Of a DNA stretch of 64,000 nucleotides, positions 3,547 through 61,029 are shown piece by piece. Below the pieces are notes generated by a model, which was not told the origin of the DNA, did no database searches, and saw only the letters and a program-made list of their open reading frames with translations. Numbering within the stretch: the stretch's first letter is position 1; each line of letters starts with the position of its first letter. The stretch spans positions 1,303,501-1,367,500 of the forward strand of contig NZ_AP027270.1 of the NCBI RefSeq assembly GCF_036322705.1. The letters are read 5' to 3'. The translations under genes and the position numbers were made by a program. The DNA comes from Maricaulis maris (GTDB lineage Bacteria; Pseudomonadota; Alphaproteobacteria; Caulobacterales; Maricaulaceae).

Positions 3547-4916
3547 GACGTCCATCCGTCCATGATCCCTTTCAACGCCCTCCCATAGGCCTGCTCCACC
3601 GCGCTGCGGACCAGGGACCGTCCGTCGTGAACCCGCGCCACGCCGCCGACGTAAACACTTCGCACCTGGCGGGCATCGCCGGCGAAGATCCAGCTGTCCA
3701 GCAGCGTGTCGCCCCGGCGTTCCGCAAGAACGGGATTGCGGGTGTCCAGCTCGACGAGGTCGGCGCGAGAGCCCACCGCCAACTGTCCCATGGCTTGCCC
3801 CAGCGCTTGCGCCCCGCCCGCCGAGCAGGCGTCAAACAGGGTGCGGCCGGTGCTCGATCCGGCCTGACCGAGAAGGTTGCGTTCGCGCCGTGTCAGTCGC
3901 TGGCCGTATTCGAGCAGGCGCAGTTCTTCTGCCAGGTCGATACGGATATGGCTGTCCGATCCGATGCCGATCCGTCCAATGGCGGCCAGATAGTCAATGG
4001 CCGGGAAGAGGCCGTCGCCGAGGCTGGCCTCGGTCAGCGGGCACAGGCCTGCGACCGCTCCGGAGCGAGCCAGGGTGTGTGTCTCCTCTGCATCCATATG
4101 GGTCGCATGGACCAGACACCATCGGGAATCCACCGGCTGATGGTCGAACAGGTACCGCACCGGGCGCTGACCGGTCGCGGCGAGACAGGCATCCACCTCG
4201 GCGGTCTGTTCAGCGATATGGATATGCACCGGTCCGGCCTCGGCCAGCGGCAGGATCTCGGTGATGTCGGCCATCGATGCCGCCCGCAGTGAGTGCGGCG
4301 CGATACCGATGCGGGCTTGGGGCAGCTGTGCAGCGTGATGACGGGCACGATCAACCAGCCGCCCGTAGAGCTCCGGATCAGCGAGGAAGCGTCGCTGTCC
4401 TGGTGTGGCAGGGGTCTCGTTGAACCCGGAATGGCGATAGAAGACCGGCATCAGGGTGAGGGCGATGCCCGTTGTTTCCGCCGCCGCACAGATGCGCCCG
4501 GCCATCTCGCCGATATCGTCATAAAGGCCCCCGTCAGGGGCGTGGTGGAGATAGTGGAACTCGCCGACCGCGGTAAAGCCGGCTTCGAGCATCTCGACCT
4601 GGACCATGGCTGCAATCGCTTGAACCACGTCCGGGTCGAGACGGTCGAGGAAGCGGTACATGACCTCGCGCCAGGACCAGAAACTGTCGGTGCCCGGACC
4701 GCGCTTTTCCGACAGGCCTGCCATGGCGCGCTGGAAGGCGTGCGAGTGAAGATTGGCCATGCCGGGAATAACGCAGCCGAGTCTGTGGTCCCCGGGACCG
4801 GCGGACTGGCCGGGCTGCAACTGCGTGATCAGGCCGTCCGCGCCGACCGTGAGGCGAACATTCTCGGCCCAGCCATCGGGCAGCAGGGCCTGCGCGAGAT
4901 GAAAGTCAGCGGACAC
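3543..4916 (-). CDS. hutF: HutF, formimidoylglutamate deiminase
   Basis: 457-residue amidohydrolase that converts N-formimino-L-glutamate to N-formyl-L-glutamate and ammonia. Metal-binding features are NLHSHAFQRAMAG near residue 55, the EFHYLHH segment, the conserved HSLRA and HIHIAEQ motifs, and GSDSHIRIDLAEELRLLEY near the C-terminus, all typical of HutF. The start is GTG at 4916 with GGGAG upstream. Together with HutG it defines the two-step formylglutamate branch rather than direct release of formamide. It is divergent from hutI and coupled to hutC. Confidence 0.95.
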   Translation of the reverse strand: MSADFHLAQALLPDGWAENVRLTVGADGLITQLQPGQSAGPGDHRLGCVIPGMANLHSHAFQRAMAGLSEKRGPGTDSFWSWREVMYRFLDRLDPDVVQAIAAMVQVEMLEAGFTAVGEFHYLHHAPDGGLYDDIGEMAGRICAAAETTGIALTLMPVFYRHSGFNETPATPGQRRFLADPELYGRLVDRARHHAAQLPQARIGIAPHSLRAASMADITEILPLAEAGPVHIHIAEQTAEVDACLAATGQRPVRYLFDHQPVDSRWCLVHATHMDAEETHTLARSGAVAGLCPLTEASLGDGLFPAIDYLAAIGRIGIGSDSHIRIDLAEELRLLEYGQRLTRRERNLLGQAGSSTGRTLFDACSAGGAQALGQAMGQLAVGSRADLVELDTRNPVLAERRGDTLLDSWIFAGDARQVRSVYVGGVARVHDGRSLVRSAVEQAYGRALKGIMDGWTS

Positions 4917-4955
4917 AGCGTCTCCCGGCTGGACAGACTCGAAAACCGGGACTTA

Positions 4956-4967
4956 TTGTATAGACAA
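4956..4967. promoter_or_regulatory. Probable HutC operator between hutF and hutI
   Basis: The 88-bp gap between the divergent hutF and hutI genes contains the near-palindrome TTGTATAGACAA (half sites TTGTAT and TTGTCT). It resembles known HutC sites of the TTGTAT-N-ACAA type. It lies about 40 bp from each start codon, where one bound dimer could control both directions. Confidence 0.6.
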
Positions 4968-5004
4968 ATATGCGCTTGCAAAGACCCGCCAGGAGCTTGA
5001 CCGC

Positions 5005-6213
5005 ATGCAGTTTGATCGACTTCTCACCGAGGCCCGTCTGGCGACCCTGGGCGCTGGCGATGACGGGTATGGCGTGATCGAGAAGGCCGCTCTGGGCATA
5101 AAGGACGGTCGCATCGCCTGGATCGGTCCCATGGACCGGGTGCCGGGCGAGGCGCGAGCGGTGGAGCGTCTTGCCAGCCGCTGGGTCACGCCGGCGCTGA
5201 TAGATTGTCACACCCATCTCGTCTTTGCCGGTGACCGGTCGGACGAATTTGAGCGGCGTCTCGGTGGCGAAAGCTATGAGAGTATCGCGCGCTCGGGTGG
5301 CGGCATTGCGCGCACGGTCGAGGCCACCCGGGGTGCCGGGGCGGCCGAGCTCGCCGCGAGCGCCCTGACGCGGCTCGACGCACTGGCCCAGGAAGGCGTC
5401 GGCACGGTTGAAATCAAGTCGGGATATGGCCTGACGCTCGATAGCGAGCGGACCATGCTGCGGGCCGCTCGTGGTGTGGCCCGGGCGTCCGGCATGCGGG
5501 TGTCAGCCACGCTTCTCGCTGCCCATGCCGTGCCCCCGGAATTCATTGGCGAAAGCGGGCGTTATATCGATGAAATCTGTATTCCGTTGATCCGCGAAGC
5601 GGCCCGTGAGGGGCTGGCGGATGCGGTGGATGCCTATTGCGAGGGTATCGGCTTTTCGCCGGAGGAGACGCGGCGCCTCTTCATCGCGGCCAAGGCCGCC
5701 GGCCTGCCGGTCAAACTCCATGCCGATCAGCTGTCTGATACCGGCGGCGCGAGGCTGGTCGCGGAGTTCGGCGGCCTGTCGGCAGACCATATCGAGTACA
5801 GCAATGCCGACGGGATCGCGGCAATGGCGAAGGCCGGCACGGTGGGTGTTCTCCTGCCGGGCGCCTTCTATTCGATTGGCGAGACCCGGAAGCCGCCTGT
5901 GGCCGAGATGCGTGCCGCCGGCGTCCGGATGGCGGTCGCAACCGACGCCAATCCCGGCACCTCGCCCATGGTCTCTCTGCTCACTGCGGCCAACATGGCC
6001 TGCCGGCTCTTTGGCCTGACCGTGCCGGAAGCTTTTGCGGGCATGACCCGCAACGCCGCGGCGGCTCTGGGCCTGCAGGACGAGATCGGTACGCTGGAAG
6101 TCGGCAAAGCGGCCGATCTCGCCATCTGGGACGTCGAACGACCGGCAGAAATCATCCAATGGATCGGACGCCGGCCGCTGCATGGCCGCATCCTCGCAGG
6201 AGAGTGGCAGTGA
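5005..6213 (+). CDS. hutI: HutI, imidazolonepropionase
   Basis: 402-residue amidohydrolase that opens the imidazolone ring to give N-formimino-L-glutamate. Family hallmarks are [19 protein letters not shown] (metal HxH), [34 protein letters not shown] and [10 protein letters not shown]. The start is ATG with AGGAG at 4991-4995. The stop codon overlaps the GTG start of hutH as GTGA. It is the first gene of the rightward hutIHGU operon, downstream of the putative HutC operator. Confidence 0.97.
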
Positions 6214-13234: not shown

Positions 13235-13267
13235 AAAGCCGCCGGGTGAGGCTCACCCGGCGGCTTT
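13235..13267. terminator. Bidirectional rho-independent terminator
   Basis: AAAGCCGCCGGGTGAG pairs perfectly with CTCACCCGGCGGCTTT around a one-base centre, flanked by A-rich sequence on the left and TTTCTT on the right. It sits between the convergent membrane-protein and sheath-like genes and should work in both directions. Confidence 0.85.
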
Positions 13268-13293: not shown

Positions 13294-14481
13294 TCAGGGC
13301 TGATCGAGCATGATTTCGCTGTCGAGAACGATGAACTCGGCCGGGCGGAGTGGCGCGAAGCCCAGCTGGACGCGGACCCGACCCTGATCGAGATCGTCCT
13401 GGGTCATGGTGGAGCCGAGGCCACACTGCACGAAATAGGACTGGCTTGGTGTCGCGCCCATAAACGCGCCCTCGCGGTACAGGCCGTTGAGGAAGTCGCC
13501 CAGTTGTGTGCGGATCGCCTGCCACAGCGACGGGACGTTGGGCTCGGCCTCGACCCAGTCGAGCAGGCGCGGCAGGCTGCCTTCGATCCAGCGCGCCAGG
13601 CGGCGAACGGAGATGTAACGGTATTCCGGATCGGTTGAGAGGGTCCGCGCGCCCCAGATCAGCGTGTCGTTGGTCGGGCTGGTCCAGATCGGGTTGACGT
13701 GGGCCGCAGTCATCGCACCAACATCGGTCTGGGACAGCGCGCGGGCACTGTAGCCGACCAGGCCAGCACTCATTCCGGCCGGTGCTTTCCAGACACCCGC
13801 GGTACTGGTCATTGCCATGATCTGTCCCATCACGGCAGGCCCTGGCGGGATCAGTGCGCCAGTCTGATCGCGGAGCCAGGGGGCGTAGGCAATGGCGTCC
13901 GGGTCATCAATCGCGAGCTCCCGGCGCCATAGCGCATAGTCCGGATGGCTGTCAGGGGCGTCGATCACCAGCGTCGCATAGTTTGACCGCGCGGACCGCA
14001 AGCCGCGCGCATAGAGGCCAGACCGGGCCGCTGGATCGTCGGCCAGATGGCGGCCGGCGTCGACAAGGTGGAGCAGGGTGAAATCCCCGGCGTCGGCCGC
14101 ATCCAGGGCGTCGAGCGCTCGCATGTAGTCTGGCCGGCCCGACGCGTCGGGCGCAGCCTGGACGAGGAGGCATCGACCGCCACCCTGACGGTTGTAGGGC
14201 GTGGTCACCCCTGATGCGAGATCGAAGCGCGGATCCAGTTCTGACGGGGTGTCCAACGTCTGGAGGGCACCGCTTGGCAGGTCCGTCGACAATGGGCCGA
14301 CAAAGACCGCGGTATCGAGGGCACGGGGCGGTGTGCCGGTAAACCTCGCGCGCTCCTGGACATAGACCCCCGGCGCGAGTGTCGGCGACAAGCGTCTCTG
14401 TGCCGATGCGACACCGGTCGAGGATGCCATGAGACTGGCCGAGGCGGCGCTCGCTGACAGAAGAAGTTGGCGTCGGTTCAT
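13294..14481 (-). CDS. Tail-sheath-like protein with an export signal
   Basis: 395 residues. The body matches contractile tail sheath proteins (Phage_sheath family): PGVYVQERARF with DTAVFVGPL at the N-terminus, YAPWLRDQTG followed by PPGPAVMGQIMAM and GVWKAPAG in the middle, and a complete C-terminal sheath domain with LIWGARTLS, YRYISVRRLARWIEGSL, EPNVPSLWQAIRTQL, FLNGLYREGAFMG and FAPLRPAEFIVL. Unlike normal sheaths, residues 1-28 (MNRRQLLLSASAASASLMAS and on to VASAQ) form a signal peptide with a twin arginine and an AxA cleavage site. No tube, baseplate, spike or ATPase genes are nearby. Family assignment is firm; export and function are inferred. It could be a domesticated surface or periplasmic protein rather than part of an injection machine. 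Confidence 0.85.
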   Translation of the reverse strand: MNRRQLLLSASAASASLMASSTGVASAQRRLSPTLAPGVYVQERARFTGTPPRALDTAVFVGPLSTDLPSGALQTLDTPSELDPRFDLASGVTTPYNRQGGGRCLLVQAAPDASGRPDYMRALDALDAADAGDFTLLHLVDAGRHLADDPAARSGLYARGLRSARSNYATLVIDAPDSHPDYALWRRELAIDDPDAIAYAPWLRDQTGALIPPGPAVMGQIMAMTSTAGVWKAPAGMSAGLVGYSARALSQTDVGAMTAAHVNPIWTSPTNDTLIWGARTLSTDPEYRYISVRRLARWIEGSLPRLLDWVEAEPNVPSLWQAIRTQLGDFLNGLYREGAFMGATPSQSYFVQCGLGSTMTQDDLDQGRVRVQLGFAPLRPAEFIVLDSEIMLDQP

Positions 14482-14604
14482 GCTCGGATATCCCCTCGAA
14501 GCCAGGTCACGGGTGACCGGATGTCATCATGGCGCATTTACCCGACGTCGTCGCGGGACAATCATGAAGCGAGTCGGAGGTCCGGCCAGAAGGAGCGTGC
14601 CGCC

Positions 14605-59907: not shown

Positions 59908-61029
59908 TCAGCCGCCCAGAACGCGTTCGCGCTGCACCATGTAGGGCATTTCCGAGATCCGGCCCCAGCCGCGCATGGTGTCGCGCGCGGCGAGATAGCT
60001 GTCATAGACGCGGCGTGTAAACGGATCGGCATTGCCTGTGTCCGCTACGACCTGCTCGGAGATTTCACCGATCCGGGTCCAGATCTCGTCCGAGAACTGG
60101 CGCAGCTCGACACCGTGCTCATTGACCAGCACATTGAGGGCAAGGCCATTCTGGTACTGGAATTCCGCAATAGAGATATTGTTCGCGGTCCGGCAGGCCG
60201 AGGCGATGATCGCCTGATGATCGCTGGCGAGCCCATCCCAGACCGTCTTGTTGATGCCAACCCCGAGGCAGGAGCCCGGCTCGTGGAAACCCGGACCATA
60301 ATAGTAGGGTGCTTCGCGATAAAAGCCGAAGGCGAGGTCATTCCACGGGCCGACCCACTCGGTACCATCAATCGCTCCGGACTGGAGCGCGGGATAGATC
60401 TCGCCGCCCGACAGGGTCACCGCGGCGCCGCCGAGCTCGCGCAGGACGTTACCGCCAAGCCCGGGAATTCGCATCCGCAAGCCCCGAAAATCTTCCAGCG
60501 TGTTGATTTCGCGTTTGAACCAGCCGCCCATCTGGTGGCCGGAATTGCCGGCCTGGAACGGCTTGATGTTGAACTGGCCGGACAGCTCGTCCCACAACAT
60601 CTGACCGCCACCGGCTTCGACCCAGCCCATGATCTCATAAGCGGTCATACCCATCGGGACGGCGGTAAAGAAGTTGAAAGCCGGTGACTTGCCTTGCCAG
60701 TAGTATTCGGCTCCGTGGTACATGTCGGCCGTGCCCTCGGACACGGCATCGAAGGCCTCGAAGGCCGAGACGATCTCGCCCGCCGCATAGACGCGGACTT
60801 CCAGCGATCCGCCGGACATGCGGTTGATATAGTCGGCGACATTATTGGCGGCAGTCCCCAGGCCGGGGAAATTCGCCGGCCAGGTGGTCACCATGCGCAG
60901 GCGTTTGACGCCGCGATTGACTGCCGGTGCGGCCGGACCGCTGGCCGTGTCCTGTCCGGTTTCACCGCAGGCCGTGGCCACCGTCGCCGCAGCGACGGCA
61001 CCGCCGCTGATGAATGTGCGTCGATCCAT
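59908..61029 (-). CDS. dctP: TRAP substrate-binding protein, TakP/FcbT1-like
   Basis: 373 residues from the ATG at 61029. A Tat-type signal DRRTFISGG leads to a lipobox-like ATAC, so it may be a Tat-exported lipoprotein. The mature part RLRMVTTWPANFPGLGTAANNVADYINRMSGG, MYHGAEYYWQGKSPAFNFFTAVPMGM and GTEWVGPWNDLAFGFY fits the mannitol/chloroaromatic group, which includes the 2-oxo-acid binder TakP. A substrate such as pyruvate or another 2-oxo acid is the best guess. Confidence 0.9.
   Translation of the reverse strand: MDRRTFISGGAVAAATVATACGETGQDTASGPAAPAVNRGVKRLRMVTTWPANFPGLGTAANNVADYINRMSGGSLEVRVYAAGEIVSAFEAFDAVSEGTADMYHGAEYYWQGKSPAFNFFTAVPMGMTAYEIMGWVEAGGGQMLWDELSGQFNIKPFQAGNSGHQMGGWFKREINTLEDFRGLRMRIPGLGGNVLRELGGAAVTLSGGEIYPALQSGAIDGTEWVGPWNDLAFGFYREAPYYYGPGFHEPGSCLGVGINKTVWDGLASDHQAIIASACRTANNISIAEFQYQNGLALNVLVNEHGVELRQFSDEIWTRIGEISEQVVADTGNADPFTRRVYDSYLAARDTMRGWGRISEMPYMVQRERVLGG

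Follow-up and report, generated by a model that had tools for sequence, protein, structure and literature searches.

Can the sheath of a contractile tail be put to use outside the cytoplasm? The question is raised by a gene of Maricaulis maris in the window analysed here, the whole stretch of 64,000 nucleotides, whose product (P0001) reads as a sheath homologue preceded by a Tat-like signal peptide and standing without tail genes. To our knowledge, sheath assembly is cytoplasmic, starting at a baseplate and enclosing a tube; we know of no sheath of an extracellular contractile injection system (eCIS) with an export signal, and of no exported sheath at all. In the parts of the open-access literature that were accessible (preprints excluded), no report of an exported sheath was found. 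Below, a sheath or tube with an export signal is called signed.

Sequence searches revealed that the minus-strand ORF, with an ATG at 14481, encodes a sheath homologue, in agreement with the initial annotation of this locus (Table 1). Residues 282–389 match Phage_sheath_1C (PF17482; E-value 2.7e-10; 40.6 bits against a cut-off of 26.9), and the protein further matches tail-sheath PHROGs (PHROG 17610, 1e-42; PHROG 23, 8e-28) and solved eCIS sheaths, the best three at 4e-38 to 8e-35. The initial annotation had also credited the protein with all recognisable segments of a sheath, which applies to the fold model but not to Pfam: in the Pfam profile search PF04984 gave no match in P0001, nor anywhere in its genome, while the PF04984 cut-off was passed by the relative L013 and marginally missed by L010 and L025. 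The AlphaFold model has a mean pLDDT of 89.3 and a pTM of 0.85, with low pLDDT up to about residue 44. Foldseek placed the PlPVC1 sheath on top (2.4e-24; TM 0.66/0.74); eCIS sheath entries were the best of 85 PDB matches at E ≤ 0.001, and the 50 listed of these 85 were all contractile-tail or sheath-protein entries. In the structure comparison the eCIS sheath match spans the chain of P0001, and the model shows the sheath fold throughout the mature protein. By domain and fold, P0001 is a member of the sheath protein family. It resembles the eCIS sheaths Afp2, Pvc2, PlPVC1 and those of the Streptomyces and Anabaena CIS in its compact fold, PF17482 domain, N- and C-terminal arms and core motifs; however, those sheaths belong to injection systems with a tube and a baseplate, whereas P0001 is lone and bears a Tat-type signal. 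Database records matching P0001 comprise 122 plasmid and 71 phage records. Recent foreign DNA as the source of the gene was rejected on composition, given a GC of 66.6% and a GC3 of 77.0%, near the means of the genes in the window (62.9% and 74.5%).

Table 1. Positions of the features discussed, in the window or, where a locus is named, in that locus
Feature	Position	Strand	Basis
P0001, lone eCIS-type sheath homologue, 395 aa	13294..14481	-	homology searches; AlphaFold and structure matches
Residues 1-27, predicted signal peptide of the Tat type with RR at 3-4 and AxA before Q	14401..14481	-	sequence; RR aligned in 10/10; rule base rate
GAGGGG, possible Shine-Dalgarno of the signal-bearing start	14492..14497	-	sequence; spacing rather long
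Mature N-terminal arm (PGVYVQE) and linker, residues 28-62	14296..14400	-	alignment; PGV-to-strand length 26
PF17482 sheath C-terminal domain, residues 282-389	13315..13638	-	Pfam profile match
C-terminal arm, residues 384-395	13297..13332	-	alignment; length retained, common QQ not
Membrane protein as judged from its hydrophobicity, without a Pfam match over threshold; neighbour also in L002	12035..13213	+	
Intrinsic-terminator-like hairpin (strong), between the membrane-protein gene and the convergent sheath gene	13235..13267	+	
FAD-dependent oxidoreductase (DAO), divergent from the sheath gene; neighbour also in L002	14605..15714	+	
Signed tube, G264	L286:8906-9562		PF06841
Signed tubes, G276 (tandem)	L287:5395-6003 and 4809-5381		PF06841
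Signed tube, G200	L288:9224-9790		PF06841
Signed partial tube, G296, 291 aa	L304:1408-2280		
Signed partial tube, G300, 268 aa	L305:1381-2184		

The N-terminus of P0001 reads MNRRQLLLSASAASASLMASSTGVASA followed by Q, in which a twin arginine at R3–R4, a hydrophobic h-region and an AxA site, the Tat-substrate features, are all present by pattern; the cleavage was placed by eye. Behind the predicted cleavage site stands QRRLSPTLA, and then the sheath arm motif PGVYV. The orthologue in the same genus, L002, is 52–54% identical and has an RR signal of its own. Judged by its sequence, P0001 carries a Tat-type signal, as the initial annotation had put forward. A wrong (too early) start codon was considered and rejected: the signal is present in the orthologue too, and no Shine-Dalgarno match was found before the next in-frame ATG (M18). 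We accepted the signal-bearing start because GAGGGG precedes its ATG and M18 lacks such a match; the downstream true start that had been named as an objection did not hold. Shine-Dalgarno matches of at least 4 nt precede nine of the ten signed-sheath starts described next. The search for a sigma-70-like promoter at the P0001 gene was negative.

Sheaths with an RR signal occur in ten genomes of the order (G000, G068, G264, G220, G160, G240, G276, G411, G387 and G200), in which R3–R4 and L7 align in all ten divergent proteins and the cleavage sites are mostly AxA. The order search returned matches in 28 of 398 genomes; the rows G057 and G382, which matched with an E-value near 9e-4 and are not sheaths, as well as G127/G129, read as phage-like sheaths, are excluded from our statements on sheaths. 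Within the family of M. maris, 8 of 137 genomes had any match and two a signed sheath (its own and G068), with an orthologue in one of 18 congeners; families f5 (6 of 62 genomes) and f2 (2 of 105) contributed eight more, all signed. The many homologues expected in Maricaulales therefore turned out to be a patchy set, given these 2/137, 6/62 and 2/105, although all ten signed loci are without eCIS-type genes in the stretches read, as had been expected too. A strict rule combining RR and h-region flagged 20 of 538 genes, eight of them sheaths by reading of the list, and none of 197 other testable sheath ORFs (183 distinct), a count over sheath ORFs with a PGV anchor that sets aside the 91 of 319 sheath-matching ORFs without one. 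A looser first rule had flagged six more, namely L176, which has an RR, and L092, L101, L149, L223 and L255, which lack it. These were judged false, since their flagged starts were in-frame TTG/GTG or other far-upstream codons in unlikely places, inside the sheath's own domain in L149 and L176, and the strict rule flags none of them. Among the best 80 of 557 relatives in a contig collection, RR signals were seen in L047 (= G068) and L051 (= G276) only, and among the best 80 of 105 relatives on viral contigs there were no signal flags besides the two false ones of L149 and L176. Searches of the class (385 genomes, 32 matching) and the phylum (398 genomes, 47 matching) brought up no further sheath with an RR signal among returned loci with a PGV anchor, matches without a locus and PGV-less ORFs standing apart from this statement.

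P0001 is the only sheath homologue in its 3.14-Mb one-contig genome. Compared with 52 reference proteins from five tail loci, the 64-kb window contained no eCIS component homologue, and neither the gp19-type tube family PF06841 nor the baseplate family gp25 (PF04965) was matched in the complete genome; the tube profile A3 likewise found nothing there. These tube and gp25 searches work, because both families matched in the eCIS/tail controls G136, G019, G402, G210 and G246 of the 20-genome searches; PF06841 gave no match in the 14 built-in control genomes. The gp25 family was absent from all ten signed-sheath genomes. With no baseplate gp25 beside the sheath, the features tested place P0001 outside the contractile injection systems, and in a genome without a detectable tube it would have to work by itself or together with a partner diverged beyond detection. 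The absence of a tube claimed for P0001 thus stood for its own genome as regards the families searched, but three relatives with signed sheaths do encode tubes, themselves signed, as described below. Within the window, a further RR-signal protein is encoded at 59908–61029 (MDRRTFISGGAVAAATVATAC), probably a Tat lipoprotein given its cysteine.

The search for the same fusion and synteny suggested by the initial annotation was productive. The loci of P0001 and L002 share the same two flanking genes, and a single conserved neighbourhood surrounds the signed sheath in three f5 genomes (G264, G220 and G240), where it adjoins a gene that by reading is presumably nadC. No consistent partner gene was found next to the signed copies among those neighbours that were scanned. 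Against the same 52 reference proteins, eCIS-type component homologues were found at none of the ten signed loci, in stretches of 10.9 to 64 kb, in which the short contigs L036 and L038 (about 10.9 kb) show their neighbourhoods incompletely. Matches to L044_07 at two signed loci (L033 and L035) and four unsigned ones (L048, L271, L272 and L274) overlap the sheath itself and were discounted, because L044_07 is an antisense ORF of a sheath. The comparison, with ten signed sheaths and no eCIS-type genes in the stretches read, lends support to the exported stand-alone sheath that had been proposed.

At 22 unsigned loci examined, tube/baseplate-type partners were present in 11 and absent in 11, a split that is not a rate because several partnerless loci were chosen for looking lone. 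Such partners beside unsigned sheaths of relatives had been regarded as counter-evidence to an exported sheath; they are found, and are as expected if signed sheaths derive from such systems. Moreover, the orphan unsigned sheaths mean that the loss of partners does not imply export: orphan state and export are separable, as partnerless unsigned sheaths and sheathless signed partial tubes both illustrate. Lone alphaproteobacterial sheaths of the f44 group and of genus g28 in family f3, which we take for Caulobacteraceae, share with P0001 the lack of eCIS-type partners and have conserved neighbourhoods; unlike P0001, no signal peptide was found in them, and the f44 sheaths start with a short basic segment. 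The lone unsigned sheaths L048, L271, L272 and L273 of a sphingomonad group have a conserved neighbourhood, the N-terminus MALKQVVRWMRSMTR and a tree position near the compact subtype described below, and those of g28 (L046, L275, L276 and L277) are syntenic and about 370–390 aa long. A second kind of sheath, long, lone and unsigned, is encoded at L042:8659–10374 in another genome of the genus of M. maris, where the adjoining genes by reading resemble those for an ABC transporter and a sulfotransferase. In the g28 set, the genomes G250, G218 and G418 bear additional sheath and tube genes at other places.

Phylogenetic analysis separated the signed sheaths into two groups. A compact group comprises P0001, G068, G264, G220, G160 and G240, joined by G276 in the smaller tree, and adjoins the unsigned lone f44 sheaths, whose neighbourhood is shared by L048 from a Sphingomonadales MAG. 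A long group (G411, G387 and G200) is nested among unsigned eCIS sheaths. In these quick trees of 88 and 37 rows, in which some branches are long (L011 and L013), a single clade of all ten signed sheaths was rejected (p-AU 3e-41; lnL difference 210), whereas the six compact-group rows as a single clade were not (p 0.20). Given the rejection of a single clade, signed sheaths arose at least twice.

Tubes with export signals occur in three of the signed-sheath genomes. PF06841 matches, all above cut-off, were found in G264, G276 (two) and G200, and no gp19-type tube was detectable in the other seven, including that of M. maris. The four near-complete tubes all start with export signals by eye, which are Sec-type in G264 and G276 and Tat-type in G200 (TRRGFVQSG). 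GGAGG precedes the start codon in G264; those in G276 and G200 are without a clear Shine-Dalgarno match. Through PF06841 these proteins match the tubes of eCIS and the T4_gp19 family (All3324, AlgoCIS, Afp), from which they differ by their Sec- or Tat-type signals, the position of their genes at loci unlinked to the sheath, and the absence of gp25. The G264 tube gene stands after DUF6607 and DUF4198 genes; its product was modelled with a pLDDT of 71 and an unordered signal region, its best matches are eCIS tubes, and 39 plasmid records match it. Directly downstream of the G200 tube, L288:9798–10223 encodes an unsigned protein of 142 aa that is weakly tube-like (PF06841 4.5e-4, below cut-off).

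In the order as a whole, the tube profile matched 17 of 398 genomes, and no export signal was visible on the tubes of twelve other matching genomes. The remaining two, G296 and G300, encode partial tubes, each of which has a signal-like start and a stretch of low complexity but no more of the gp19-type tube domain than its first part. The former passes the PF06841 cut-off and matches eCIS tubes at 2e-12; the latter is similar and stays below the cut-off at 18.9 bits. Neither of these f5 genomes has a sheath match, G300 being 88% complete. Tubes and sheaths are thus not strictly paired, and the two parts need not go together. Three of the five genomes with signed tubes or tube pieces are also signed-sheath genomes (hypergeometric 1.1e-4 over 398 genomes, 4.9e-3 within f5), as are all three with near-complete tubes (1.2e-5 and 5.3e-4, respectively), values that ignore phylogeny, come from five tube genomes all in f5, and concern a link noticed before it was counted. 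The signed tubes in three signed-sheath genomes point to a reuse of tail parts outside the cytoplasm.

Purifying selection on the signed sheaths is indicated by dN/dS ratios of 0.22 (G220 against G240) and 0.32 (P0001 against G068, dS 1.4); three neighbour genes, with the FAD neighbour left out, gave 0.09, 0.14 and 0.20. Of 96 columns that other sheaths conserve, P0001 retains 70%, and most of the core motifs GVWKAPAG, WGARTL and PAEF is still present in signed sheaths. The linker from PGV to the first strand has 27 residues in all 35 measurable unsigned sheaths of alignment A4 (outside the f44 group, one row cut off) and 27 or 28 in four f44 rows; in signed sheaths it has 27 in seven of ten, 26 in P0001 and 28 in two. 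A two-residue insertion in the N-terminal linker of the T6SS sheath protein VipA abolished contraction, while one residue left killing unaffected (PMC5797969), so that linker length probably matters for assembly geometry. The C-terminal tail has 11–12 residues in all ten signed sheaths. Its QQ, found in 33/36 and 36/36 of the other sheaths, has disappeared from the compact subtype (column 389 in 1/7, column 390 in 0/7) and mostly retained in the long subtype (column 390 in 3/3, column 389 in 2/3). The arm interface of the compact subtype may therefore be altered or gone. A sheath protein can assemble alone, since gp053 of phage FV3 forms polysheaths without tube or baseplate, as reported for that phage (PMC6357053); gp053 there is a recombinant product of a phage gene, whereas P0001 is a predicted exported host protein.

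We tentatively propose, with nearly as much confidence as doubt, that P0001 is a domesticated eCIS sheath that is exported by Tat and probably assembles outside the cytoplasm. The precursor would fold in the cytoplasm with the signal peptide placed directly on the N-terminal arm used in subunit linkage, where it may block the arm until it is cleaved. Tat would then carry the folded monomer across the inner membrane, and the cut by signal peptidase would leave an arm of near-normal length. Finally, once beyond the cytoplasm, the subunits would associate with one another to form a sheath-like polymer or a smaller assembly with a putative structural role, which separately exported gp19-type tubes may join or template in some relatives. 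With more reserve, we consider it possible that some Alphaproteobacteria repeatedly made the sheath of a contractile injection system, and in some cases also its tube, into separately exported blocks of a baseplate-free extracytoplasmic polymer resembling a tail, whether periplasmic or outside the cell, and unlike any known contractile system.

The exported protein might instead be a monomer that has lost polymerisation and reuses the sheath fold as a soluble binder or adaptor in the periplasm. A C-terminal arm without QQ in the compact subtype, a linker off by one in P0001 and two others, and the seven of ten signed-sheath genomes without a tube found would agree with a monomer, and the signed partial tubes without a sheath match suggest a lone reuse of single parts. 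However, arm length, linker length and core motifs are largely retained, the long subtype keeps its QQ, and exported tubes co-occur in three genomes; we regard this monomer as rather unlikely. Another possibility is that exported sheath and tube subunits act as decoys or antagonists which poison or sense incoming contractile tails, tailocins or eCIS. Such a role would suit a distribution as patchy as that of defence genes, conserved subunit interfaces, and the export of sheath and tube without a baseplate, but PADLOC gave no match in three signed sheaths, the G264 tube and five of six neighbours scanned (ten proteins in all, one neighbour lying beside the unsigned L042 sheath), and the weak partial match of the sixth neighbour, an FAD oxidoreductase (1.5e-6, desaturase model), fits a generic FAD domain. 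We consider decoys improbable.

Export itself would be in doubt if the N-terminus were an extension whose hydrophobicity is accidental, or if it stayed uncleaved and anchored the protein in the inner membrane on the cytoplasmic side. Against this stand the RR motif, h-region and mostly AxA sites of the ten sheaths, the Shine-Dalgarno match at the signal-bearing start and not at M18, and the signed tubes in the same order, which together leave a cytoplasmic protein very improbable. The orphan state, the patchy distribution and the absence of eCIS-type partners nearby could also be what a lost injection system or prophage leaves behind, P0001 being a decaying remnant with a signal-like N-terminus by accident. 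Such decay is hard to reconcile with an intact ORF, dN/dS values of 0.22–0.32, an RR retained in ten of ten proteins of at least two origins, and loci kept the same in two congeners and beside the presumed nadC in three f5 genomes; we disfavour it as scarcely credible.

For our preferred reading of P0001 as an exported, domesticated sheath, the ten sheaths, four near-complete tubes and two partial tubes make up a small, testable gene set for a role in the envelope. If export holds true, parts of a tail would be able to serve the cell as material secreted beyond its cytoplasm, a use that would have been acquired at least twice.
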